NCBI GenBank assembly: GCA_944321205.1
Contig: CALUKK010000140.1
Coordinates: forward strand, 1-46,824
Reading direction: 5' to 3'
Origin: an uncultured Alistipes sp.
GTDB lineage: Bacteria; Bacteroidota; Bacteroidia; Bacteroidales; Rikenellaceae
DNA: 46,824 nt
Shown: in pieces, positions 1 to 21,493 of the stretch
Position numbering within the stretch: the stretch's first letter is position 1
Layout: the number at the start of each line of letters is the position of its first letter
Position numbers and translations under genes: made by a program
Notes under the pieces: generated by a model
The model's input: the letters and a program-made list of their open reading frames with translations, nothing else
What the model was told of the DNA's origin: nothing
The model's database searches: none

Positions 1-142
1 GACAGAATTCAACTGCTTCGACGGCGGTAGCGCCCGCCACCGCGGGGAGTCCCCTCTCCGTTCCGCCTCCGCCCGGCGCCGGGAAGCCGTTGCCGCGGCA
101 TCCGGATCTGCCGCCGCTGCGCAGCGACGGGCGGCTGCCGCT

Positions 143-541
143 CTATTCGGCCGTCAGCCGCTCCCGCCATGCGTCGGGAACGGGACGCGAGCACTGATTC
201 GGAAAGTCGAAGACGACCATCACCGAGCGGCTTTCGCTGCGCACCTCGTCGCCGACGAGCAGCTGCTGGTAGAGGGTGAGGCTCTTGTTGCCGACCCGCT
301 CGCAGGTGGTGGTGATGCGCACCGGATCGGTCATGCGCACCTGACCCATGTAGGAGGTCGAGGTCGAGACGGTGACGATGCGCAGATCGCCCAGCAGGGC
401 GCCGGCGCCGCCGAGCACCTGGTCGTAATACTCCATCTTGCCGACGTCGAAGTACATCTGCTGCGAGACGTTGTTCACGTGCTGGAAGGGATCGACGTCC
501 GAAAAGCGTTTCTGAATCGGTGTAACGAGGGTGCGTGCCAT
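143..541 (-). CDS. acyl-CoA thioesterase, 4HBT hotdog family
   Basis: 132 residues, the usual length for a single hotdog-fold thioesterase. Residues 13-24 (FSDVDPFQHVNN) carry the DxDxxxHVNN signature of the 4-hydroxybenzoyl-CoA thioesterase/YbgC/FadM group, whose Asp supports thioester hydrolysis. The family cleaves acyl- or aryl-CoA (sometimes acyl-ACP) in the cytoplasm; the substrate cannot be read from the sequence. No signal peptide or membrane segment is visible. The start lies one base after the stop of the YrdC-family gene, so it is the last visible gene of a three-gene minus-strand operon. Family call is firm, physiological role unknown. Confidence 0.88.
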   Translation of the reverse strand: MARTLVTPIQKRFSDVDPFQHVNNVSQQMYFDVGKMEYYDQVLGGAGALLGDLRIVTVSTSTSYMGQVRMTDPVRITTTCERVGNKSLTLYQQLLVGDEVRSESRSVMVVFDFPNQCSRPVPDAWRERLTAE

Positions 542-542
542 C

Positions 543-1139
543 TTACTCGCGGATGATCTTCACCTCGCCGCCCTCGCCGAACGCGATGATCGACGATGCC
601 TTGCGGGTAGGTTTTCCTTCGAAACGGGGATTGACGACGAAGTCCACGCCGTCGATGATCTCACGGGTGACGTCCTGCAGTCCGACGGCCGTCGGCTCTC
701 CGGAGATGTTGGCCGAGGTCGAGACCACGGGCCGCCCCAGGGCGCGCAGCATGCGCTGGCAGAATTCGTGGTCGGGGATCCTTACGCCGAGGGTCCCCTC
801 CTCGGGGATGAGGTTCGGGGCCAGCCCCGCGGCGCCGGGCAGGATGGCCGTCAGCGGCGTGGTGGCCATCTCCATCACCTCGAAGGCGATGCCGGGAGCG
901 CGGTTGACATAGCGCACGACCATGTCGGCCGAGGCGCACAGCACGAGCATCGACTTCTTGTTTTCGCTGCGTTTGAGCCGGCAGATGCGGTCGACGGCTT
1001 CGGCGTTCGTGGCGTCGCAGCCGATGCCCCAGACCGTATCGGTAGGGTAGAGGATGATGCCGCCGCGGCGCAGCACCTCCACGGCGCGTTCGACCTCCTC
1101 CTGCAGGGGGGCGTTCTTTTTTTCGCTGGTCTTCTGCAT
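543..1139 (-). CDS. YrdC/Sua5/YciO-family protein (L-threonylcarbamoyladenylate synthase type)
   Basis: 198 residues, the length of the single-domain YrdC/YciO form without the C-terminal Sua5 domain. Family motifs are clear: the N-terminal GGIILYPTDTVWGIGCD stretch, KRSENK in the nucleotide and bicarbonate pocket, and STSANISGEPT near residue 145. True family enzymes make threonylcarbamoyl-AMP from Thr, bicarbonate and ATP for t6A in tRNA; YciO paralogues share the fold but may do otherwise. I chose the ATG at 1139 because homology begins there and the 61 upstream in-frame residues are a shadow of the glyoxalase gene. It sits 7 bases after the glyoxalase stop and 1 base before the thioesterase. 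A second family member elsewhere in the genome cannot be excluded. Confidence 0.88.
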   Translation of the reverse strand: MQKTSEKKNAPLQEEVERAVEVLRRGGIILYPTDTVWGIGCDATNAEAVDRICRLKRSENKKSMLVLCASADMVVRYVNRAPGIAFEVMEMATTPLTAILPGAAGLAPNLIPEEGTLGVRIPDHEFCQRMLRALGRPVVSTSANISGEPTAVGLQDVTREIIDGVDFVVNPRFEGKPTRKASSIIAFGEGGEVKIIRE

Positions 1140-1146
1140 GTTCGTC

Positions 1147-1530
1147 CTATTTTTGGAGCGGAAGGATCTCGATCCAGTAGTCGTCGGGATCGTTGATGAA
1201 GTAGAGACCCATCTCGTGGTTCTCGAAGCACAGGCAGCCCATCGCGCGGTGGTACTCGCGTACGGCGTCGTAATCGCCCGCCACGCGCACGCAGAGATGG
1301 CTCTCGTTGTCGCCCAGCTCATAGGGTGTTGCGGCGTGGTCGCGCAGCCACGTCAGCTCGAGCTTGAACGACGACTCGCCGTCGCCGACGAAGACGATCT
1401 CGTACGATCCGTCGGCAGCCTTCTGGCGGCTGATCTCCTTGAGTCCAAGGGCCTTGTCGTAGAACTTCAGACTACGTTCGAGGTCGGTGACATTGACATT
1501 GAAATGGTCGAAACGGCTTTTGATCTCCAT
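1147..1530 (-). CDS. VOC-family glyoxalase I-like protein (lactoylglutathione lyase type)
   Basis: 127 residues with two beta-alpha-beta-beta-beta halves of the vicinal oxygen chelate fold. The four expected metal ligands are visible: His in FDHFNV near the N terminus, Glu in KLELTW, His in ESHLCV, and Glu in YWIEILP near the C terminus. The phrase LERSLKFYDKALGL is typical of glyoxalase I. The family converts hemithioacetals such as that of methylglyoxal; the thiol used in this organism is unknown. The ATG at 1530 is chosen because homology starts there; the in-frame extension to 1704 covers the probable promoter. First gene of the operon with the YrdC and thioesterase genes. Confidence 0.85.
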   Translation of the reverse strand: MEIKSRFDHFNVNVTDLERSLKFYDKALGLKEISRQKAADGSYEIVFVGDGESSFKLELTWLRDHAATPYELGDNESHLCVRVAGDYDAVREYHRAMGCLCFENHEMGLYFINDPDDYWIEILPLQK

Positions 1531-1628
1531 GGTATTTTCTTTTTTCGTGTGACAAAGTTTTGCCGCCGGGCGGCGGTCCGGATCCGCGTCTTGCCTCCGG
1601 TTCGGTCCCGGCGGGATGGTTTCCGCTG

Positions 1629-1636
1629 CAAAAATA
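1629..1636 (-). promoter_or_regulatory. -7 element (TATTTTTG) for the glyoxalase operon
   Basis: On the minus strand the eight bases read TATTTTTG, a match to the Bacteroidota TAnnTTTG -7 box, about 100 bases before the glyoxalase ATG. No clear TTTG lies 19-20 bases upstream, so this is a half-site call. Confidence 0.4.
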
Positions 1637-1721
1637 GACAATTCTCGGGAGAATCCCCGCCGCAGGCGTGGAATCGTATGGAATATTTTTTGCGGCACTT
1701 CCATTTTTTTTCTGAATTTTA

Positions 1722-1729
1722 TACCTTTG
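1722..1729 (+). promoter_or_regulatory. -7 element (TACCTTTG) for yebC
   Basis: TACCTTTG matches TAnnTTTG exactly and lies in an AT-rich stretch about 40 bases before the yebC ATG, giving a leader of roughly 35 bases. A TTTG occurs at 1689-1692 but at 29 bases spacing it is too far for the usual 19-20. Confidence 0.6.
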
Positions 1730-1770
1730 TACGCTGAAAGAAAAAATCCGAAAATAAAAATTCATCATTT

Positions 1771-2499
1771 ATGGGAAGAGCCTTTGAATACCGCAAAGCG
1801 CGGAAGTTGAAGCGTTGGGGGCACATGGCCCGCACCTTCACCAAACTGGGTAAGGAGATCGAAATCGCCGTGAAGGCCGCCGGAGCGGATCCTTCGGGCA
1901 ATACGCGTCTGCGTATTCTGATCCAGAACGCCAAGGAGGAGAACATGCCCAAGGAGAATATCGAGCGTGCGATCAAACGTGCCACGGAGAAGGATGCGGC
2001 CGACTACAAGGAGGTCATCTACGAGGGATACGGTCCTCACGGAATCGCCTTCCTGGTCGAGACGGCCACGGACAACACCAACCGTACGGTGGCCAACATC
2101 CGCATGCACTTCAACAAATGCGGCGGTACGCTGGGCAACAGCGGTTCGGTGGGCTTCCTCTTCGACCACAAGTGCGTCTTCAAGTTCAAGGCTCCGGGTG
2201 CCGATCCCGAGGAGCTGGAGCTGGAGATGATCGACCTGGGCGTGGACGAGTTCTACCCCGAGGAGGACGGCATCACGGTCTATGCCCCCTACGAGTCGTT
2301 CGGCGCCATCCAGAAGTGGCTCGATGACAAGGGATTCGAGATTGTCTCGGGAGAGTCGGTACGCATCCCGACCGACACGAAGGAGCTCGATGCCGAGGGG
2401 CGCGAATCGGTTGAGAAACTCGTCGAGCGCCTCGAGGAGGATGACGATGTGGTGAACGTCTACCACACGATGAAGGAACCCGAGGCCGAGGAGGAGTAG
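1771..2499 (+). CDS. yebC: YebC/PmpR-family protein
   Basis: 242 residues, full family length. The N terminus begins MGRAFEYRKARKLKRW and contains the strongly conserved GADPSGNTRLRILIQNAK and NMPKENIERAIKRA segments; the central GYGPHGIAFLVETATDNTNRTV and the GSVGFLF strand follow. YebC proteins were long listed as transcriptional regulators and are now also linked to relief of ribosome stalling; this sequence does not decide between the two. The C-terminal end is acidic (EPEAEEE). It is a single-gene plus-strand unit with its own -7 box at 1722-1729 and ends 26 bases from the stop of the convergent rubrerythrin-like gene, with only a short GC-rich dyad between them. Confidence 0.96.
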   Translation: MGRAFEYRKARKLKRWGHMARTFTKLGKEIEIAVKAAGADPSGNTRLRILIQNAKEENMPKENIERAIKRATEKDAADYKEVIYEGYGPHGIAFLVETATDNTNRTVANIRMHFNKCGGTLGNSGSVGFLFDHKCVFKFKAPGADPEELELEMIDLGVDEFYPEEDGITVYAPYESFGAIQKWLDDKGFEIVSGESVRIPTDTKELDAEGRESVEKLVERLEEDDDVVNVYHTMKEPEAEEE

Positions 2500-2525
2500 C
2501 CCCGGGCGGGGCCTCGCCGGCCCGA

Positions 2526-3245
2526 TCAGATGCCGGATACGGAGAGCGGAGAGGATTCCGAGGCTTCGTGTCCGGCTTTTTCGTCCCCGGATCCGACGGC
2601 GTTCTCCGGCCCGAACCGGATGAACTCCTCGCCCGAGGTCAGACAGTGCGGACAGTAGCGGTCCAGATGTTGTGATTCATAGAGATTCCCGCAAACGGGA
2701 CATACGGCAAACTCTTCAGCTCCGATGGCATTCAGATTCTCCAGCAGGATGATTTCACGCAGATCCGTCGCTGCGGCCCATATCTGCAGGCGGGCGGCAT
2801 AACGGTTCCCGCGACTCATCGCGCGCCGGATCTCGGCGTCGGTGTGCTTCCCGAAGCGGTGTCGTTCGACTCCGATGCAGCGTTCCAGGTTCCTCGATGT
2901 CGAACCGCCGTAAAGTGCGATCTCCTGCGGCGGAGCGTAATTCCCGCCCAATCGGCGGATGGCCGCGGCAAGATTCTCCTCCTGGAGGTGCTCGGAGCAG
3001 GCGATGGCCCGGAAAAGACGGGCGGCACCGATTCGATTCTCGGCGGCGGCGATGTCGGCAAAATGTTCGTATTGACGGGCCTTGAGGTGCTTGCGGCGTC
3101 CGCAGGCCTCCAGGTCGACGAGGATCTCGTGCCAGGTCGATCTTCCGTGTCTCGGCGGCAGGAAGGCCTTGCCGTCGTAGAGCCAGACGAGTACGCCGAC
3201 GGAGACGACGAATAACGACAGAATCAACAATAATCGCGGTTTCAT
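2526..3245 (-). CDS. membrane-anchored rubrerythrin-like protein, degenerate di-iron site
   Basis: 239 residues. An N-terminal membrane helix or uncleaved signal (about residues 4-23, LLLILSLFVVSVGVLVWL) is followed by an all-helical region resembling the ferritin-like domain of rubrerythrin (about 40-175) and a rubredoxin-like metal site CPVC...CPHC (Cys 182, 185, 198, 201). By eye, most di-iron ligands of true rubrerythrins are replaced: Lys or Arg where the first Glu sits, and Gln and Asn where His residues sit. It may therefore keep the fold and the Cys4 metal site without peroxidase chemistry. The ATG at 3245 is chosen because the hydrophobic segment follows at once; 39 upstream in-frame residues are not protein-like. 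A near-consensus TATCTTTTG lies about 20 bases upstream. Confidence 0.65.
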   Translation of the reverse strand: MKPRLLLILSLFVVSVGVLVWLYDGKAFLPPRHGRSTWHEILVDLEACGRRKHLKARQYEHFADIAAAENRIGAARLFRAIACSEHLQEENLAAAIRRLGGNYAPPQEIALYGGSTSRNLERCIGVERHRFGKHTDAEIRRAMSRGNRYAARLQIWAAATDLREIILLENLNAIGAEEFAVCPVCGNLYESQHLDRYCPHCLTSGEEFIRFGPENAVGSGDEKAGHEASESSPLSVSGI

Positions 3246-3343
3246 GGCTGCCTCTCTTCGTGGACAAAAGATACTCGTGCGGTGCATTTTCCGTGCCACA
3301 GGTGCGGATGCCGGGAGCGGGAATCGGATTTTTGACGTGCGGT

Positions 3344-3374
3344 TTTGGATTTCCCGGATCAATTTTTAACTTTG
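3344..3374 (+). promoter_or_regulatory. Bacteroidota promoter TTTG-N19-TAACTTTG
   Basis: TTTG at 3344-3347 and TAACTTTG at 3367-3374 are separated by exactly 19 bases, a full match to the Bacteroidota sigma-ABfr promoter. It precedes the lipoprotein ATG at 3408 by 33 bases and rules out the longer in-frame start at 3345. Confidence 0.8.
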
Positions 3375-3407
3375 CAAACCGCGCTGTTGCGAAAAAACTG
3401 GTTGTCT

Positions 3408-3890
3408 ATGCGATGGAATCTTGCACTGTGTGTCGTAGTGATGTGGGTTGTGGGGAGTGTCTCCTGCTCGAAGCGGAGCGGAGAGGATGCGGGTGGTTCC
3501 GAGCCTGTGGACCAGGGGTGGGAGCTGATCTCCTGGGACGGTGGTACGGCGATTGCCGGCCATGTCTTTTTGCAGTTGGTGGACAACCGCTTCACCCTTT
3601 ATCAGTCGGTCGGTGATCTGTCGACGGCCGGATACCTTTCGTATACCGGAACCTATACCCTTACGGAAAGTTCGGAGCAGGGAACGTTGCTCCGGGGAGT
3701 CTACGCCGACGGGAATCCCTGGAAACGTGTCTATGTGGTTGAAGCCTGGACGTCGTCGGAACTCCGCTTGCGGTCGCTCGACGAACAGATTGTCTCGGTC
3801 TATGCGTGGAGTGTGATCCCCGACTATGTGAAGTTGGACCCCGTCACGATCCGATCCCGGGGGCCGGGTCTTGAGGAGCCGTTTTTGTAA
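3408..3890 (+). CDS. putative lipoprotein with lipocalin-like domain
   Basis: 160 residues. Residues 1-20 form a lipoprotein signal peptide (MRWNLALCVVVMWVVGSVSC); the lipobox ends at Cys20. The mature part begins WELISWDGG and is rich in short beta strands with a YTGTYTL hairpin, resembling the small lipocalin-like proteins common in Bacteroidota; this domain call is tentative. The protein probably sits on the periplasmic or outer face of a membrane. Ligand unknown. The ATG at 3408 is fixed by the perfect promoter at 3344-3374. It is a single-gene unit followed by a rho-independent terminator. Confidence 0.7.
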   Translation: MRWNLALCVVVMWVVGSVSCSKRSGEDAGGSEPVDQGWELISWDGGTAIAGHVFLQLVDNRFTLYQSVGDLSTAGYLSYTGTYTLTESSEQGTLLRGVYADGNPWKRVYVVEAWTSSELRLRSLDEQIVSVYAWSVIPDYVKLDPVTIRSRGPGLEEPFL

Positions 3891-3919
3891 GAGCTGTTGA
3901 TTCTGAGTCCTTCCGATAA

Positions 3920-3951
3920 GCCTGTCCTCTTCCCGGGACGGGCCTTTTTTT
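3920..3951 (+). terminator. rho-independent terminator after the lipocalin-like gene
   Basis: GCCTGTCC pairs with GGACGGGC (8 bp including one G-T) around an 8-base loop, followed by a run of seven T. In the opposite direction there is no T run, so it serves the plus strand only. Confidence 0.75.
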
Positions 3952-3970
3952 GCCTTCTTCCGGAATCGGT

Positions 3971-5209
3971 TTAGAAAACGGCGCAGACCTCCAGTCCGAG
4001 CGTCAGCTTGTGCAGCGGTTTGTTCGAGGACCGGGAGATGGAGGGCGCCAGATCGTAATCCATGGCAAAACGTACACCCAGATTCTGTGTGGCCAGATAG
4101 GTGGTCGAGAGTCCGGTTCCGAGGGCAAGGCCATTGCGTGCCGGAAGATCCCCCAGATGCGTTTCACAACTTTTATAGAATTCGTATCCTCCGAGGAGCT
4201 TGCTTCCGACCTGCCACCGCAACGATATGGGATAGGAGAAGTAGGGACCGACATAGGCCGAGGCACATTCGAAATTGTCGTTTTGTGCGACGTTGTTCAC
4301 CTCCATCCGCAGATTGGAACAGGACAGACGTCCTCCCACTCCCCAATAGGGGGATGCGAACCACGCCCCCTGTACGCCGGTCGTGGGACCGGAATGGAAC
4401 TGCATGCGAAGCCCTTCGTAGGGGATATAGGTCCCCGGAACGGTTGTCATGCCGATTCCGAATCCCAGGAATGACGGATGGCGGTAGCGGTCATGGACCG
4501 AGAAGGTCTCGTAGACGTTCAATCCCCGCTCCTTGAAGATCAGATCGGCCAGAAAGTAGCCGAATTCGGTGGCCAGGACACCGATGCCGGCACCGACCAT
4601 GATGTCGCTCATCCAGTGTCGGTTGTTGAGCTGTCGCGTGACGCCGATAGCCGTGGCCACGGCATATCCGCCGATGCTGTACCAGGGGCTGCGGTGTCCG
4701 TACTCCTTGTGGAGCATCGTGGCGGTCATGAAGGCCGTGGCGGTGTGTCCCGAGGGGAAGGAGTTGCGGGTTGAACCGTCGGGGCGCATGACGCGGCAGG
4801 TATACTTGAGCGAGTTGACGGCAATGGCCATCAACCCGGCCGAGAAGGCGTCCGAAACCAGCATCCGGCCCCAGGAGCTGCGCCCCTTGACGCCACAGGC
4901 CTTCAGGGCCAGCATGGCTCCGGCCGGCGCATACTGGAGCCAGTCGTCGTAACTCTGGTGGAACGAAGGGGCGTATCCGTTTCTGAGGCGGCGGAAGTCC
5001 GCGTCATAGCTCTGCATGATGACCCCGCCGACGATCAGCGGCGTGCCGATGTAGAGCATCCGGTAGGCTTTCGTGGAGGTGTGGCGATCGATCCGTTTGC
5101 GGAATTCGCCGCCGGCACTCCAATCCACGCTGTCGCGCCGTTGGGCCCGGGCCTCGCTTCCGAAGAGCACCAGCACGAACAGCAGGGCTAGGGTCATCGT
5201 TTTGAACAT
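3971..5209 (-). CDS. PAP2-family phosphatase with C-terminal beta-rich (outer membrane-like) domain
   Basis: 412 residues. A signal peptide (residues 1-22, ending EARAQ) precedes an acid phosphatase/PAP2 domain (about 50-225). All three PAP2 motifs are present: K135 with R142-P143, SFPSGHT at 150-156, and the third motif with R192, H198 and D202. Residues 230-412 alternate aromatic and polar residues in short strands and end in a Phe, as outer-membrane barrels often do. The catalytic domain likely removes phosphate from a lipid phosphate such as undecaprenyl diphosphate, phosphatidylglycerophosphate or lipid A; which one is unknown. It is the last gene of the mreB operon, 19 bases after the P-type ATPase, which suggests an envelope role. 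Confidence 0.85.
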   Translation of the reverse strand: MFKTMTLALLFVLVLFGSEARAQRRDSVDWSAGGEFRKRIDRHTSTKAYRMLYIGTPLIVGGVIMQSYDADFRRLRNGYAPSFHQSYDDWLQYAPAGAMLALKACGVKGRSSWGRMLVSDAFSAGLMAIAVNSLKYTCRVMRPDGSTRNSFPSGHTATAFMTATMLHKEYGHRSPWYSIGGYAVATAIGVTRQLNNRHWMSDIMVGAGIGVLATEFGYFLADLIFKERGLNVYETFSVHDRYRHPSFLGFGIGMTTVPGTYIPYEGLRMQFHSGPTTGVQGAWFASPYWGVGGRLSCSNLRMEVNNVAQNDNFECASAYVGPYFSYPISLRWQVGSKLLGGYEFYKSCETHLGDLPARNGLALGTGLSTTYLATQNLGVRFAMDYDLAPSISRSSNKPLHKLTLGLEVCAVF

Positions 5210-5228
5210 CTTTTCGGATTTTTGGGGG

Positions 5229-7814
5229 TTATCTTCTGCTTGGACGGTGGCGCCGGATGGCCCGGACGGTCTCGCCGCCGAAGGCCAGCAGGGAGGTCAG
5301 CCCGATGATCTCGATCCACTCCTGCCACGAGAGCGGCACGGTACGGAAGACCTGTCCGCCGAACTCGACAATGAGCACCTGCCCGACGGCGATGGCGGCG
5401 AGGATCAGGAAGAATTCGCGACATCCCTTCAGATGGGTAAAGACCGAGTGGTGTGTTTCGAAGCCTTTGGCGTTGAACATGTTCCAGAATTGCAGGAAGA
5501 CGAACGTCGAGAAGAAGAGCGTCAACTGACACACCGACAGTCCGCCGTCGCGGAGCGTCCACCCGAAGAGCATGCCCAGCAGTACGACAACCATGATGCC
5601 GCCGCAGGTAAAGATCGTGCGGGCCATCGAAGGCGAGATGATGAATTCGTCGCGTGAGCGGGGTTTGTCCTGCATGACCTCGGCACTTGGCGGAAGCGAG
5701 GCCATGGCCATGGCGGCGAAGGTGTCCATGATGATGTTGACCCAGAGGATCTGCACCACGGTCAGCGGCATCTCGGTACCGAAGACGGCCCCGATGAAAC
5801 AGATCAGAATCGCGGCAAAGTTGATCGTCAGCTGGAAGAGTACGAAACGCTGGATGTTGCGGTAGAGCGAGCGTCCCCACATGACGGCCGTGGCGATCGA
5901 GGCAAAGGAGTCGTCCAGCAGGGTGATGTCCGAGGCGTCCTTGGCCACGGAGGTTCCCGAACCCATCGAGAGCCCGACATTGGCGAAATTCAGTGCCGGG
6001 GCGTCGTTTGTTCCGTCCCCCGTCACGGCGACGACCTCTCCGCGCTGTTGCAGCAGTTTGACGAGCCGCTGTTTGTCGAGCGGTCGGGCCCGCGACATGA
6101 TTTTCAACTCCTGGACGCGGTCGAGCAGCTCCTCGTCGCTCATGGCGGCGAACTCCGCACCGGTTATGCAGTTCCGTTCTCCGTCCGTCGCATCGTTCCA
6201 GAGTCCGATCTGGCGGGCGATCTCGCGTGCCGTGGCGGGGGTGTCGCCCGTGACGATCTTCACGGCGATGCCGGCCCGCAGACACTGTCCGACAGCCGCC
6301 GGAACATCCTCACGCACGGGGTCCGAGATGGCTGCCACGGCCGCGAAGTGCAATCCTCCGGCACGGACGGCCTCGGTGCAGTCCGACGCTTCGGTTTCGA
6401 TCCACGCCACGCCCAGTGTCCGCATGGCGCGGTTCTGGAAGGTTGTGAGTTGGGCGGAGACCTCTTCGTCGTGTCCGTCCGGCGCACACATCGCGCGCAC
6501 GATCTCCGGGGCTCCCTTGACACAGAGCAACCGGCGTCTCGTCAGGCCGCTTTCGATGATCGTGGCCATGTATTTGCGTTCGGTCGAGAAGGTCAGCCGG
6601 TCGACGATCTTCGCTCCGGCACGCAGCGTCTCGTAGTCGTTGCCGCCGCGACGCAGCCACTCGAGCAGCGCCCCTTCGGTCGGATTGCCGATGATCTTGC
6701 CCTCGGCGTCGAGGAAGGCCGTGGAGTTGAGCGCCACCACCTCGGCGAACTCCCGATCCGGGAGGGCGTCGTAGCGCACGAGCTCCTGGACGTGCATGCG
6801 GTTCTGGGTCAGCGTGCCGGTCTTGTCGGTGCAGATGACCGTCACGGCGCCCATCGTCTCGCAGGCGTGCATCTTGCGCACGAGGTTGTTGGTCTTGAGC
6901 ATCCGCCGCATGGACATGGCCAGCGAGAGGGTGATCGACATCGGAAGCCCCTCGGGTACGGCCATGACGATGATGGCCACCGAGACCATGAAGATGTTGA
7001 GCACGTGCTGCGAGATGGTGAGCCAGTCCTGCTGGAGCAGGTCGCCCACGAGGAAGGCCTTGGCCAGCATCACACAGAAGATCAGCCCCGAGAGGATGAT
7101 GCCCACGCGGCCGATCAGATGCGAGAGGCGGGTCAGCTGGCGGTCCAGCGGGGTCTGCTCGTCGCTCTGGACGGTCGACTGTTCGGTGACGCGCCCCGCT
7201 TCGGAATTGTCGCCCACGGCTGTCGTGACCATCACACCGTAGCCGTCGGCAACGGTTGTGCCGCGCATGGCGACGTTCGACGGATAGGTTGCTTCGGGGT
7301 CGAAGTGCGCCTCGTCGACCGTCTTGTCGACTTCGGGTTCCCCGGTGAGGGTCGACTCGTTGATCTTCAGCGAGACGGCCTCGACCAGTTCGCCGTCGGC
7401 CGGGACGGTCTCGCCGCCCTCGATGTAGACCACGTCGCCCACCACTACTTCCCGACGGGGTATTTCGCGGATCGTGCCGTTGCGCATCACCTTGACGGGA
7501 ATGTCGTCGTTGACCTGATTCAGCCGGCGGAATCGCCGCTGGGCGTCCCACTCGAACCAGAAACCCACGCACGTGGCCAGGATGATGGCGCAGATGATGC
7601 CGATCGATTCGGTGAAGTCCCGGTGAACGAATCCGATGGCCAGCGAGAGCACGGCGGCCAGCAGCAGGATCCGGATGATCGGATCCCGGAACTTTTCGAG
7701 CAGAAGTTTCCAGGCCGAATCGTCTTTCGGTGGGGTGATGATGTTGTTGCCGTGTTCCGCACGGCTCTTTTCGACCTCGGAGTCGGTCAGACCTTTGGGG
7801 TTGTAGTGTATCAT
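5229..7814 (-). CDS. calcium-transporting P-type ATPase (P2B, PMCA-like)
   Basis: 861 residues, full length for a P2 ATPase. An N-terminal cation-ATPase domain starts the protein. TGEP (157-160) belongs to the actuator domain; AVPEGLP (285-291) lies in TM4 with the ion-binding Glu. The phosphorylated Asp330 is in DKTGTLTQN, with KGAPE at 433-437 for nucleotide binding and GDGTNDAPA at 599-607 in the P domain; further C-terminal membrane helices follow. The AVPEGLP motif and lack of heavy-metal domains point to Ca2+ export, similar to plasma-membrane-type pumps. The start lies 3 bases after the rodA stop, so it is part of the mre/rodA transcript. Family sure; ion inferred. Confidence 0.93.
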   Translation of the reverse strand: MIHYNPKGLTDSEVEKSRAEHGNNIITPPKDDSAWKLLLEKFRDPIIRILLLAAVLSLAIGFVHRDFTESIGIICAIILATCVGFWFEWDAQRRFRRLNQVNDDIPVKVMRNGTIREIPRREVVVGDVVYIEGGETVPADGELVEAVSLKINESTLTGEPEVDKTVDEAHFDPEATYPSNVAMRGTTVADGYGVMVTTAVGDNSEAGRVTEQSTVQSDEQTPLDRQLTRLSHLIGRVGIILSGLIFCVMLAKAFLVGDLLQQDWLTISQHVLNIFMVSVAIIVMAVPEGLPMSITLSLAMSMRRMLKTNNLVRKMHACETMGAVTVICTDKTGTLTQNRMHVQELVRYDALPDREFAEVVALNSTAFLDAEGKIIGNPTEGALLEWLRRGGNDYETLRAGAKIVDRLTFSTERKYMATIIESGLTRRRLLCVKGAPEIVRAMCAPDGHDEEVSAQLTTFQNRAMRTLGVAWIETEASDCTEAVRAGGLHFAAVAAISDPVREDVPAAVGQCLRAGIAVKIVTGDTPATAREIARQIGLWNDATDGERNCITGAEFAAMSDEELLDRVQELKIMSRARPLDKQRLVKLLQQRGEVVAVTGDGTNDAPALNFANVGLSMGSGTSVAKDASDITLLDDSFASIATAVMWGRSLYRNIQRFVLFQLTINFAAILICFIGAVFGTEMPLTVVQILWVNIIMDTFAAMAMASLPPSAEVMQDKPRSRDEFIISPSMARTIFTCGGIMVVVLLGMLFGWTLRDGGLSVCQLTLFFSTFVFLQFWNMFNAKGFETHHSVFTHLKGCREFFLILAAIAVGQVLIVEFGGQVFRTVPLSWQEWIEIIGLTSLLAFGGETVRAIRRHRPSRR

Positions 7815-17078: not shown

Positions 17079-18416
17079 TTAGAGGATACCCTGCTCGACC
17101 ATCGACTTGGCCACCTTCATGAAGCCGGCGATGTTGGCGCCCTTCATGTAGTTGATGTATCCGTCGGGTTCGGTGCCATACTCCAGGCAGGCGTGGTGAA
17201 TCGACGACATGATGTGGTGCAGTTTGGCGTCGACCTCCTCGGCCGTCCAGTTGAGTTTCTGGGCGTTCTGCGTCATTTCGAGACCCGAGGTGGCCACGCC
17301 GCCGGCGTTGACGGCCTTGCCCGGTCCATAGGGGATCCTGGCGGCGATGAAGGCGTCGATGGCCTCCGGACGGCAACCCATGTTCGAAACCTCGGCCACG
17401 ATCTTCACACCGTTGGCCAGCAGCTTCTTGGCATCCTCGCCGTCCAGTTCGTTCTGCGTGGCGCACGGCATGGCGATGTCGACCTTGACCTCCCAGGGCT
17501 TGCGGCCGGCGAAGAACTTCGCGCCGGGGAATTTCTCCACGTAGGGCTCCACGACGTCGTTGTTCGAGGCGCGCAACTCCAACATGTAGGCGATCTTTTC
17601 GTCGTTCAGACCGTCGGGATCATAGACATAGCCGTCGGGGCCCGAGAGGGTCACGACCTTGGCCCCGAGTTCCGTCGCCTTCTTGGCGGCACCCCAGGCG
17701 ACGTTGCCGAAGCCCGAGATGGCGATCGTCTGGCCCTTGATGTCCATGCCGGCCTTCTGGAGCATCTGGCGCAGGAAGTAGACGGCGCCGTAGCCCGTAG
17801 CCTCGGGGCGGATGAGCGAACCTCCGTAGGTCATTCCTTTTCCGGTGAGTACGCCGGTATTTTCGCGTGCGAGTTTGCGGTACATGCCGTAGAGGTATCC
17901 GATTTCGCGGCCGCCGACGCCGATGTCACCGGCCGGGACGTCGGTCTCGGGACCGATATGACGCCAGAGTTCGGTCATGAAGGCCTGGCAGAAACGCATC
18001 ACTTCGCGATCCGACTTGCCCTTGGGGTTGAAGTCCGAACCTCCCTTGGCACCGCCCATCGGCAGGGTGGTCAGGGCATTCTTGAAGATCTGCTCGAAAC
18101 CGAGGAACTTGAGGATCGAGAGGTTGACCGAGGGGTGGAAACGCAGACCGCCCTTGTAGGGGCCGATGGCGTTGTTGAACTGGATGCGGTAACCGAGGTT
18201 GGTCTGGACCTCCCCCTTGTCATCCACCCATACGACCTTGAACGTGAAGATCCGGTCGGGCTCGACGATCCGTTCGGCGATGCGGTTGGCCTCGAATTCG
18301 GGATGCTGGTTGTAAGCGCCCTCCACGGTCATCAGAACTTCGCGCACGGCTTGCAGGTATTCGCTTTCGCCGGGGTGCTTGCGCTCGAGTTCCGTCATGA
18401 TTTTGTTAACGTTCAT
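17079..18416 (-). CDS. gdhA: NADP-type glutamate dehydrogenase
   Basis: 445 residues, the length of the hexameric small GDH. Signatures are IQFNNAIGPYKGGLRFHP around the substrate lysines, LPMGGAKGGSDFNPKGKSD with the catalytic Lys, TDVPAGDIGVGGREIGYL, and the Rossmann segment IAISGFGNVAWGAAK. It aminates 2-oxoglutarate to glutamate in the cytoplasm. NADP use is inferred from overall similarity to the assimilatory class. It has its own -7 box and terminator, so it is probably transcribed alone. Confidence 0.97.
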   Translation of the reverse strand: MNVNKIMTELERKHPGESEYLQAVREVLMTVEGAYNQHPEFEANRIAERIVEPDRIFTFKVVWVDDKGEVQTNLGYRIQFNNAIGPYKGGLRFHPSVNLSILKFLGFEQIFKNALTTLPMGGAKGGSDFNPKGKSDREVMRFCQAFMTELWRHIGPETDVPAGDIGVGGREIGYLYGMYRKLARENTGVLTGKGMTYGGSLIRPEATGYGAVYFLRQMLQKAGMDIKGQTIAISGFGNVAWGAAKKATELGAKVVTLSGPDGYVYDPDGLNDEKIAYMLELRASNNDVVEPYVEKFPGAKFFAGRKPWEVKVDIAMPCATQNELDGEDAKKLLANGVKIVAEVSNMGCRPEAIDAFIAARIPYGPGKAVNAGGVATSGLEMTQNAQKLNWTAEEVDAKLHHIMSSIHHACLEYGTEPDGYINYMKGANIAGFMKVAKSMVEQGIL

Positions 18417-18452
18417 AACATTGAAGCTTTTAGGTTTGGTATTCTTCTGTTA

Positions 18453-18460
18453 CAAATATA
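18453..18460 (-). promoter_or_regulatory. -7 element (TATATTTG) for gdhA
   Basis: Minus-strand TATATTTG matches TAnnTTTG and gives a leader of about 30 bases before the gdhA ATG at 18416. The -33 position is weak. Confidence 0.6.
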
Positions 18461-18511
18461 GCAATATTCCTTATGGATTGTAACTTTTTTCGGGAATTTT
18501 TCGGAAAAATC

Positions 18512-21493
18512 TCACTCTTCCGAATTTTCCCGGACCATTCCCCGGTTCGAGCGTCCGTCGATGCAGACCCAGAGGGATCTGTCGAAGCGCACCTGACGCA
18601 GATAGGTCCCGTCGTAGAGCGCTTCACGGGCGTTGAGCACCTCTTCGCGGAAGAGCCCGTCGCCCCGGAAGGGGCTGATGGTCAGATATCCCACGCCCAG
18701 CGAGGTGACATTCTGGAAGAAGTGGGTACCCTGCGAGGGCTCGACCTCGAACTTCTCGATGCCGCACTCGACGATGACCTTGGCCTCGGAGATATGGTTC
18801 CATTTGACCGGAACTCCGAGATGGGGATCCGAAGACCCCCAGCGACCCGGGCCCACAAGGATATAGGGACGGCCTTCGTCTCGCATGCGGTTGTTCAGGG
18901 CCAGAAGTTCGTCGGCGATCTTTTCGGTGCACATCGAATCGAAGGCCTCGCTTTTCACATAGATAATGTCCGCAATGTCGGACATCATGCCGATCCCGAG
19001 GGCCTGTTCGCCGTAGATCAGCGCCCGGGCGGGATCCTCCTCGGACCAGTCGATGGCCCGGTTGTCCTGATTGTCGATGATGGGACGGATCTGCAGCAGA
19101 TTGAAGATCTGCTGCTGTCCGGCAGCGACGTCCATGTTCACGGCAAACTCCACCTCCACCGGGCAGCGCATCTCCTCGGCACCCAGCCGAAGAATGTCCG
19201 TGATGATCTCGGCCAGCGGGAAGGTGTTGTACTTCAGGATGTTGTTGAATGTAATCACCTTGCGTCCCCGATCGAACGGACTGTCGGAGATCCGTTCATT
19301 TTCGCGGTCCCAGACCGAGCAGACGAATTTCGAGTTGCGGTAGTCTCCGATTTCGCGCAGGGAGAGTTTACGCAGGTTCACCGCATCGTCGATCGACGTG
19401 CGGAACTCTTCGGGGCGCAGACTCAGGGCCAGGACCTCGTTCTGCGTGTCGCTCAGGGCCAGTTCGGGCGTTGAGGTCTGGAGCACCTTCTGCGGGTAGC
19501 GGGGTGAGAAGCGGAGCGTGCGTCCTCCGTCGACGACGAGTTTTCCGAGGCCCATGGCGAGGTTGCAGACGCCGTCCGAGGCCTTTTCGTCTCCGATGGG
19601 GTAGTAGTTGATCGAGCGGGCGACGCCCGAGCAGGTGGGGAACCAGAGTCCGTTCTGCTCCGTGCCGCAGACCTCCTGGATGATGACGGCCATCTTCTCC
19701 TCGGAGATGAGGTTCTGCGATGAGGCGATGTAGGCCCTCGAGGCGGCGAAGTAGACCGAGGCGTAGACGCTCTTGACGGCACGCAGCAGCAGGCGCAGCA
19801 TCTGATCCTCGTTGGGGGTGTAGGGGATCATGTAGGTGGAGTAGATGCCGGCAAAGGGCTGGTAGTGCGAATCCTCGAGTTTGGATGAGGAGCGCACGGC
19901 AAGCGGCGTATGGACGGTTCGGATGTAGGCTTTCAGCTCCTCCTGGAGGCGTTGCGGCACGGTTGAGGTGACGAACTCCGAGAGGATCTCCTCGTCGGAG
20001 AAATCCTGCGAGATGATGTATTGAAGGTCGTTGCGGCGGATGAATTCGTCGAAATACTCCGTGGCGATGACCACCGAGCGCGGGATCATGATACGCACGT
20101 TGTCGTACTTGTCATACTGGCGGTGCTTCATGAGCATGGAGTTCATGAAGGCCAGACCGCGGGCCTTGCCGCCAAGCGAACCCTCGCCGATGCGGGCGAA
20201 GGCCACGGCATCGGAATAGGTCTCGGGGTCGAAGCGTGCCACGACACCCTGCCCGAGCAGCGTGCGGTAGTCGCGGATCAGATTCACCAGGACCCGACGG
20301 TGTTCCGCCACCGACGAGAAGTGGCTCTTGTTGTACTGGCGGATCGAGGCGGCCAGGGGAAAGAGTCCCCGGGAGTAGAGCCACTTGGAGAGGTGGTTCT
20401 GGGAGGTGTGGTATTCGAAGGCCTTGTCGGGGATCGTGGCGATCATCTGCTGCATCTGCGTGAGATCCTTGGCGCGGCCGATTTCGGCTCCGGTTTCGGG
20501 ATCCTCGAAGACGAAATCCCCGAAGGCGAACTCCTTGGCGATGTATTCGCTCAATTCGGAGAGGAGCGTTTTGGAGTTCTTGGCGATGAAGCCGGCCCCG
20601 AGGGCCCGGGCCTGCTCCCGGAAGGCCGTCTGGGACGACTGCAACAGCACGGGCATCAGCGGATTGTCCTCCTTGATCCGGCGGCAGAGGTCGATGCCGG
20701 CATCGAGTTTCTCGCTCTCCGAGGGGTCGTTGCGATGGAGGACGAACCCCACGTCGGAGATCACGCCGAGCAGGTTCTTGCGGTAGCGGAGGTAGAGTTC
20801 CGAGGCTTCGTCGTAGCTGCGGGCCAGCAGGATCTTGGGCCGGGCGCGCTTGCGGAGGACCTGTTGCTGTTCGTTGAAGGCATCCTTCAGGAACTCGGTG
20901 TTCTGGAGCAGGATCAGCTTGTAGAGTTCGGGCAGATAGGTCGAATAGAAGCGGATCGAGTCCTCGACCAGCAGAATGGCCTGTACGCCTCCTTCGAGAA
21001 TATCTTCGTCGGCATTCATCTTGTCCTCGATGAGTTTGATGATACCGATGATCAGGTCGGTGTTTCCGTGCCAGGAGAAGATGTAGTCGAGGCCGGAGTG
21101 GTCCTGCTCCTCGATGCGGCGGTAGATGTCCTTGGAGAAGGAGGTCAGCAGCGCCACGGGAATCTGGGGATGACGCTCCTTGACGATGCGGGCAAAGGCG
21201 AAGACGTCGGGCTCTCCGACGTTGTACATCGTGAGGATGAAGTCGTAGGAGTCGTCCTCGGCCAACGCCTCGAGGGCTTCGGCCGTGGAGCTTACCCGGG
21301 TCAGCGAGGGGGGATTCGACATGTTGAGGTCGATGTACTCCTGATTGATCTGGGATTCGATGTGTCCGTCCTCTTCGAGAATATAGCCGTCGTAGCTGCA
21401 GCAGACGAGCAGGATCTTGTGGATCCGGTATTTCATGAACCGGTAGGGGAGTTTGCTCCCGTCGGGCATGTACTGTTCCAGGCTTTGGGTCAT
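18512..21493 (-). CDS. REC-REC-PPDK_N protein (PEP/pyruvate-binding, PEP synthase-like)
   Basis: 993 residues, no signal peptide. Two receiver-like domains come first. Domain 1 (about 25-155) is degenerate: Met89 stands where the phospho-acceptor Asp should be and the acidic pair is lost. Domain 2 (about 170-320) keeps E177-D178, acceptor D247, S286-S287 and K305. An ATP-grasp pyruvate/PEP-binding domain follows (about 430-810) with GGKARG (441-446), VRSSS (533-537), E540-D541 and QIRP (801-804). The C-terminal part (810-993) contains GPGRWGSSDPHLGVP. I see no phosphohistidine swivel motif (TSH type) and no PEP-binding barrel, so PEP synthase activity is doubtful, although such proteins are often annotated that way. 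Divergent from the GNAT-like gene. Confidence 0.85.
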   Translation of the reverse strand: MTQSLEQYMPDGSKLPYRFMKYRIHKILLVCCSYDGYILEEDGHIESQINQEYIDLNMSNPPSLTRVSSTAEALEALAEDDSYDFILTMYNVGEPDVFAFARIVKERHPQIPVALLTSFSKDIYRRIEEQDHSGLDYIFSWHGNTDLIIGIIKLIEDKMNADEDILEGGVQAILLVEDSIRFYSTYLPELYKLILLQNTEFLKDAFNEQQQVLRKRARPKILLARSYDEASELYLRYRKNLLGVISDVGFVLHRNDPSESEKLDAGIDLCRRIKEDNPLMPVLLQSSQTAFREQARALGAGFIAKNSKTLLSELSEYIAKEFAFGDFVFEDPETGAEIGRAKDLTQMQQMIATIPDKAFEYHTSQNHLSKWLYSRGLFPLAASIRQYNKSHFSSVAEHRRVLVNLIRDYRTLLGQGVVARFDPETYSDAVAFARIGEGSLGGKARGLAFMNSMLMKHRQYDKYDNVRIMIPRSVVIATEYFDEFIRRNDLQYIISQDFSDEEILSEFVTSTVPQRLQEELKAYIRTVHTPLAVRSSSKLEDSHYQPFAGIYSTYMIPYTPNEDQMLRLLLRAVKSVYASVYFAASRAYIASSQNLISEEKMAVIIQEVCGTEQNGLWFPTCSGVARSINYYPIGDEKASDGVCNLAMGLGKLVVDGGRTLRFSPRYPQKVLQTSTPELALSDTQNEVLALSLRPEEFRTSIDDAVNLRKLSLREIGDYRNSKFVCSVWDRENERISDSPFDRGRKVITFNNILKYNTFPLAEIITDILRLGAEEMRCPVEVEFAVNMDVAAGQQQIFNLLQIRPIIDNQDNRAIDWSEEDPARALIYGEQALGIGMMSDIADIIYVKSEAFDSMCTEKIADELLALNNRMRDEGRPYILVGPGRWGSSDPHLGVPVKWNHISEAKVIVECGIEKFEVEPSQGTHFFQNVTSLGVGYLTISPFRGDGLFREEVLNAREALYDGTYLRQVRFDRSLWVCIDGRSNRGMVRENSEE

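Follow-up and report, generated by a model that had tools for sequence, protein, structure and literature searches.

PPDK and PEP synthase combine an ATP-grasp domain (PPDK_N, PF01326) with a phosphohistidine domain (PF00391) and a PEP barrel. Rifampin phosphotransferase, which is not known to have receivers, shares the PPDK_N ATP-grasp domain, as do the PigC/RedH ligases; besides this domain, rifampin phosphotransferase is reported to have a swivel domain with a His and a domain that binds rifampin. A fusion of receivers to a PPDK-type domain (REC-PPDK) has been named in print. In Desulfovibrio, the PPDK-type protein DVU0246 and the receiver protein DVU0247 belong to a nitrate-resistance cluster and have mutant phenotypes (PMC4001038).

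Here we analysed a 46,824-nucleotide stretch of DNA from an uncultured Alistipes sp. (the window), which encodes a protein with two receivers, a PPDK-type ATP-grasp domain and a C-terminal domain of no known family, next to a glutamate dehydrogenase (GDH) gene. Its features are:

18512..21493, minus strand: whole gene, 993 aa, class A (REC-REC-linker-PPDK_N-C-terminal domain)
21014..21436, minus strand: receiver 1, residues 20-160, lacking the acceptor Asp; matched weakly by Pfam at 61-124 and homologous to receiver 2 (E 8e-9)
20519..20992, minus strand: receiver 2, residues 168-325, with E177, D178, D247, S286 and K305; modelled receiver fold
20753..20755, minus strand: codon of D247, where receiver 2 is expected to be phosphorylated (D in 78/78)
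20204..20518, minus strand: helical linker, residues 326-430, from the model
19058..20203, minus strand: PPDK-type ATP-grasp domain, residues 431-812 (PF01326, 4.8e-39)
18515..19057, minus strand: C-terminal domain of no known family, residues 813-993, from an isolated model; no convincing Pfam, PDB or Foldseek match
18815..18853, minus strand: GPGRWGSSDPHLG motif, residues 881-893 (G883, R884, W885, G886, L892 and G893 in 107/107)
18722..18724, minus strand: codon of His924, in PSQGTHFFQN, candidate phospho-carrier (H in 107/107)
17079..18416, minus strand: GDH, 445 aa, immediately following on the same strand after a gap of 95 bp (PF00208 1.4e-85, PF02812 5.4e-51)

The 993-residue frame is unbroken, and the nearest loci in our genome scan, from Alistipes records, are 93-95% identical. 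It is no chance open reading frame, since its C-terminal domain is present in 49 of 296 Bacteroidota genomes and, within the window's order, in 131 of 149 genomes. A Pfam scan of the whole protein at E<=1 returned PPDK_N at residues 439-812 and Response_reg in two stretches (2.1e-5, with a score under the family's own cut-off), and no match to PF00391 or to the PEP-barrel families. Only 181 residues follow the ATP-grasp domain, with no C-terminal PEP/pyruvate barrel. The original prediction, that the ATP-grasp domain is intact and the architecture of PEP synthase missing, is borne out on both points, and all four of its ATP-grasp motifs were located, three of them starting at residues 441 (GGKARG), 533 (VRSSS) and 801 (QIRP) and ED lying at 540-541; GPGRWGSSD follows at 881. 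It had also foreseen a misleading database name, and a Parabacteroides relative is indeed annotated 'PEP/pyruvate-binding domain-containing protein'. The AlphaFold model of the full-length protein shows receiver-like, linker, ATP-grasp and C-terminal parts, and because of its mean pLDDT of 81 and pTM of 0.54 we left the domain arrangement unused. Top Foldseek matches of the whole protein were rifampin phosphotransferase (2.7e-9; 5.4e-9 for its ATP-binding domain by itself) and proteins with tandem receivers, among them PleD. In general, the protein does not look like PEP synthase; it looks like a signal-controlled, ATP-binding protein.

The ATP-grasp domain contains the PPDK_N domain of PEP synthase and PPDK (135 bits against a cut-off of 27). 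All 107 aligned members of the family carry the ATP-grasp residues (78 class A, 8 class B and 21 class C sequences, one identical row having been merged): K443, R534, E540, E782 and Q801 never vary among the 107, R803 is kept in 106, and we take these six to be the counterparts of the ATP-site residues of PPDK. By profile and by fold, the nearest PPDK_N enzymes are the PigC/RedH ligases and rifampin phosphotransferase. The NCBIfam model for the latter reached 23 bits, below its cut-off of 999, and only over residues 506-618, and PDB matches were confined to 526-620; the set of ATP, rifampin-binding and His domains of that enzyme is not present here.

Of the two receivers that the original prediction places in front, only receiver 2 is fit for the phosphorylation control that it proposes. 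Among the 78 class A sequences, receiver 2 retains the acidic pair (E177 in 78, D178 in 77), the acceptor Asp (D247 in 78), the Ser/Thr (S286 in 77, T in one) and the Lys (K305 in 78) of a response regulator. The corresponding acceptor place of receiver 1, at the end of the third strand, is residue 89, which was located by eye where the profile alignment is gapped, and is T in 43 of the 78 sequences, M in 33, W in one and a gap in one. Thus receiver 1, which is homologous to receiver 2 by profile and has no phospho-acceptor Asp, is an Aspartate-less receiver (ALR). In five clusters (L099, L187, L190, L193 and L196) a histidine kinase gene adjoins the class A gene, which fits phosphorylation of receiver 2. 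A 210-aa regulator, forming one BLAST cluster, then follows, immediately in four of them and with a 178-aa gene in between in L187; both of the regulators scanned have a receiver and a LuxR-type HTH, and the histidine kinase may serve only this regulator.

The region around GPGRWGSSDPHLG, to which the original prediction assigned no role, belongs to a conserved folded domain with an invariant histidine. Structure prediction and fold search of this region, which had been proposed as a check, were run on residues 806-993: modelled alone they gave a pLDDT of 89.0 and a pTM of 0.88, and no known family was matched. Identical in all 107 members are G883, R884, W885, G886, L892, G893, E909, S920, G922, H924, F925, F926 and Y936. 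His924 lies in an SxG[ST]HFF motif, and is the first residue of a helix in the isolated-domain model; residues 920-932 around it have a pLDDT <50 in the full-length model and are better in the isolated one. One survey of the domain by motif left out L138, and the motif matched nothing in L142 and L150. As an invariant residue of a conserved loop, His924 is, on sequence grounds, a candidate for the phospho-carrier that is otherwise absent.

We looked for a relationship of this domain to swivelling phosphohistidine domains by several routes. Pfam searches with 37 of its members at E<=10 gave scattered weak matches to unrelated families (best 0.0036, at most four members each), and PF00391 was not among the three families matched. 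The best E value in a PDB profile search was 0.16, and Foldseek against the PDB and a viral library found nothing at E<=0.001, with no phosphohistidine domain among the best 50 of 687 rows. By hhalign, the C-terminal domains of classes A and B match those of class C at 2.9e-26, and the His domains of PPDK, PEP synthase and PtsI-like proteins, used as positive controls, match one another at 8.6e-18 to 5.4e-14; the C-terminal domain matched none of these three kinds (P 0.18-0.93), so a swivelling His domain of a known family is not recognisable in it. The predicted lack of such a domain is thus supported by Pfam, profile-profile and fold searches. A separate His-domain partner, also suggested for follow-up, was sought in the organism's own genome (assembly 87% complete) and none was found; its single PF00391 domain lies in a 964-aa frame that also carries PPDK_N, and is therefore that of the genome's ordinary PPDK. 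Two records labelled 'Bacteriophage sp.' from faecal samples (MT835667.1 and MT835811.1) encode the C-terminal domain with 79.8% and 46.7% identity, which is possibly explained by host DNA filed as phage.

The family falls into classes of different architecture. Class A proteins (~1000 aa) have receivers, class B proteins (~585 aa) consist of the ATP-grasp and C-terminal domains, and class C proteins span 777-1084 aa in the phylum sample, mostly ~1065, two of the four scanned ending in a nucleotidyltransferase-like domain. Class D, in the window's order, comprises longer open frames, mostly of 1150-1300 aa, and the example read (L287) is a receiver-PPDK_N protein with SHFF; its gene (1-2868, plus strand), a further paralogue, precedes a class A gene at a distance of 10 bases, and a GDH gene comes after that class A gene. 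Neighbouring genes of classes B and C share a few bases, as in L095, where a class B gene (779-2527, plus strand) and a class C gene (2521-5715, plus strand) lie behind a GDH of ~429 aa. The class C protein of L095 has a nucleotidyltransferase-like C-terminal end (E 1e-4), possibly a second modifying activity beside GDH. An Ignavibacteria copy (L063, 6001-8888) is in two frames, possibly through a frameshift or sequencing error, and was used as separate pieces only.

The GDH gene next to the window's family gene, whose product carries the PMGGAKGG motif, is our best clue to the acceptor or target. Of the 83 family genes in the 49 family-positive Bacteroidota genomes, 70 have a GDH gene within 8 kb, where the numbers of genes and the sizes of the genomes would predict 0.8, and for 68 the GDH is on the same strand. 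This holds for class A (43/50), class B (10/11) and class C (17/22). Conversely, 76 of the 103 GDH rows used (E up to 2e-30, weaker rows excluded) lie near a family gene, and in a control of ten of the same genomes none of 20 PF00391 genes was near a GDH. In an Alistipes-centred scan, GDH was present in 40 of 62 loci, 39 times downstream on the same strand, mostly within ~320 bases (~0.9 kb in L040, ~1.3 kb in L049), and once upstream (L063); several of the other 22 loci end too soon to tell. Recurrent gene orders are GDH-kinase, GDH-kinase-GDH and GDH-kinase-GDH-kinase-GDH, with the family gene as the kinase. In Parabacteroides distasonis the gene (product WP_041525632.1, beside gdhA) is flanked by two genes annotated as NADP-GDH, of which the nearer is divergent; in Phocaeicola massiliensis it likewise lies between two GDHs, and in a Prevotella record there is no GDH within 9 kb. 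A Parabacteroides 'plasmid' (L294, NZ_OY725790.1, 277,666 bases) carries ruvC, rapZ and two GDH genes, and has the appearance of a chromosomal fragment.

GDH linkage is weaker in the window's own order. Among the matches listed there, 31 of the 101 class A genes and 11 of the 41 class D genes lie near a GDH (0.5 and 0.2 by chance), counting GDHs found with the window GDH only and excluding the window's own rows and the GDH of G378. Because of this degree of linkage, and since 16 of 18 genomes of the order that lack the kinase have a GDH match and 6 of 131 that possess it have no match to the window GDH, the pairing is not obligatory. In the gap between the window's two genes (18417-18511) a promoter-like match, TATATTTG, lies on the minus strand; it resembles what we take to be the Bacteroidota -7 element, so the GDH may be transcribed from a promoter of its own. 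The gap showed no terminator-like site, and in a check for co-transcription promoter and terminator counts were not above those of shuffles. We also considered an 'HPE' acceptor or docking motif in GDH, which at first split 64 paired from 16 unpaired GDHs (H in 59 and E in 61 of the paired, one each in the unpaired), and rejected it because 9 of 14 GDHs from kinase-lacking genomes of the window's order also carry HPEF.

The pairing extends to individual GDH paralogues. Two of these, 'g446' and 'g453', directly precede 30 of 45 class A genes (12 and 18, from the 44 regions read). In a quick tree of the kinases the type of the partner GDH changes only twice over the 30 labelled kinases, where 300 shuffles averaged 9.6 changes and never gave fewer than 5; the g446-type clade of 19 kinases has a support of 91 (not starred), and one discordant kinase (L200) lies inside the clade of the other type. 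In the phylum sample, seven class A genes lack a GDH in their neighbourhood. The tree puts six of them (from genomes G014, G236, G132, G216, G019 and G074) into one or other of the two clades, and in all six genomes the matching GDH is present elsewhere, as contig-end pieces in G216; the seventh (G271, L173) forms a long branch and was left unplaced. Similarly, the genomes of all ten unlinked Alistipes-type loci (L023, L027, L028, L030, L037, L043, L044, L045, L055 and L057) contain a GDH of the window's clade, a typing that excludes L036, L038 and L039, and for which L022, L041, L046 and others are too short. Part of this pairing could arise without any interaction, if linked pairs were inherited together, and the keeping of the matching GDH type after separation argues for a working relation.

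As a phosphotransferase-type reading, the original prediction stands in its ATP-grasp domain, a receiver and the overall architecture; it treated the two receivers as equal and missed the neighbouring GDH gene. Both gene neighbourhood and paralogue pairing associate the protein with GDH, and we infer the chemistry and the target. We hypothesize, with a little less than even confidence, that the protein is a two-component-controlled, PPDK-type ATP-grasp phosphotransferase that regulates GDH or acts with it; that it has some functional link to GDH is likelier than this whole model, and in our view quite probable. In the proposed mechanism, a histidine kinase would phosphorylate D247 of receiver 2, and the phosphorylated receiver would switch the ATP-grasp domain, which would use dikinase-like chemistry to pass a phosphate of ATP on to an acceptor. 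Most likely, the absent swivelling phosphohistidine domain would be replaced by the C-terminal domain, through the invariant His924. The target would be GDH or a molecule of its pathway, and the output would be control of GDH flux among 2-oxoglutarate, ammonium and glutamate, for which covalent modification of GDH would be the simplest route. On the input side, the intact receiver 2 and the histidine kinase gene beside class A genes in five clusters fit the model, and against it stand the failed acceptor motif in GDH, the discordant L200, a C-terminal domain without profile or fold similarity to phosphohistidine domains, the promoter-like match before GDH, the non-obligatory pairing and linked co-inheritance; nor is any PPDK-type ATP-grasp enzyme known to modify another protein. 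Its most specific form, in which each GDH paralogue has a dedicated ATP-grasp kinase that modifies it covalently through a non-homologous phosphohistidine domain carrying His924, seems to us rather unlikely.

Other explanations would give the protein a different task beside GDH. It could be a metabolic enzyme whose receiver-controlled reaction is the phosphorylation or ligation of a small pathway metabolite (2-oxoglutarate, glutamate or a product); the C-terminal domain would then bind the substrate or carry the phosphate. The GDH link is consistent with a shared pathway, and the nearest PPDK_N enzymes, the PigC/RedH ligases and rifampin phosphotransferase, use other acceptors; however, the sensor and receiver architectures and the paralogue-specific GDH pairing suit a regulator better, and no substrate domain of a known type appeared in the Pfam scans, so we consider this explanation unlikely. 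That the protein is instead a non-catalytic regulator, which would sense ATP or energy state through the ATP-grasp domain and control GDH allosterically by binding it, is in keeping with receivers and an ATP-binding domain adjoining GDH. We find it quite improbable, as the presence of catalytic-type residues and the His in 106-107 of 107 members suggests chemistry beyond binding.

The remaining alternatives concern the ancestry of the C-terminal domain and the meaning of the neighbourhood. By eye, the domain has a strand, a loop, a His at the start of a helix, a strand and a final hairpin-like ...DG..G.. segment, a likeness that would make it a very divergent swivel domain of PEP utilizers, with His924 as the ancestral phosphohistidine, and the whole protein a barrel-less remote relative of PEP synthase. 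Foldseek listed protease-associated domains among its matches (E 0.12 and 0.25), and the protease-associated fold also swivels. Yet the profile-profile P values of 0.18-0.93 contrast with the 5e-14 or better at which the known kinds of His domain find each other, and the best Foldseek rows offered no phosphohistidine domain, so a hidden swivel domain was rejected as a finding and is retained as a rival only, which we judge distinctly improbable. Finally, the GDH neighbourhood might reflect mere co-regulation or inherited gene order, with the protein acting elsewhere; the weak linkage in the window's order (31/101 among the matches listed), its lack in the Prevotella record and the retention of GDH by kinase-lacking genomes point that way. 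Linkage of 70 of 83 genes over 49 genomes, its extension to several GDH paralogues and the matching types retained after separation make this very unlikely.

GDH links carbon and nitrogen metabolism and is a key enzyme of the latter. If our preferred model of a GDH-directed phosphotransferase is true, a dedicated, signal-controlled and paralogue-specific ATP-grasp partner would be a new mode of GDH control in Bacteroidota, and the long-listed REC-PPDK output would gain a directly testable function, with Parabacteroides distasonis as one suitable organism. A conserved domain of no known family would likewise gain a likely role, and a misleading annotation would be corrected.

We found no paper on a GDH-linked REC-PPDK protein or on the C-terminal domain in the open-licence literature. 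The published REC-PPDK fusion, which we compare by its description, is of the same kind, with receiver 1 Asp-less here too; the part of the text available names the fusion only and gives no C-terminal domain, GDH link or function. Thus the fusion is already in print, and the C-terminal domain and the GDH association did not turn up in the open-licence papers searched. DVU0246 and DVU0247 resemble the present protein in that a single genetic pathway includes both a PPDK_N protein and a receiver, although DVU0246, again compared by description, is annotated with a PEP-utilizing mobile domain, and GDH is not mentioned in the part of that text available (PMC4001038). Rifampin phosphotransferase and the PigC/RedH ligases, the best profile and fold matches, have the PPDK_N ATP-grasp domain in common with it. 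PPDK and PEP synthase share the ATP-grasp domain together with its conserved ATP-site residues; in contrast to them, this protein lacks PF00391 and the barrel, ends in a C-terminal domain of another family and carries receivers in front, in a genome that has a separate PPDK.
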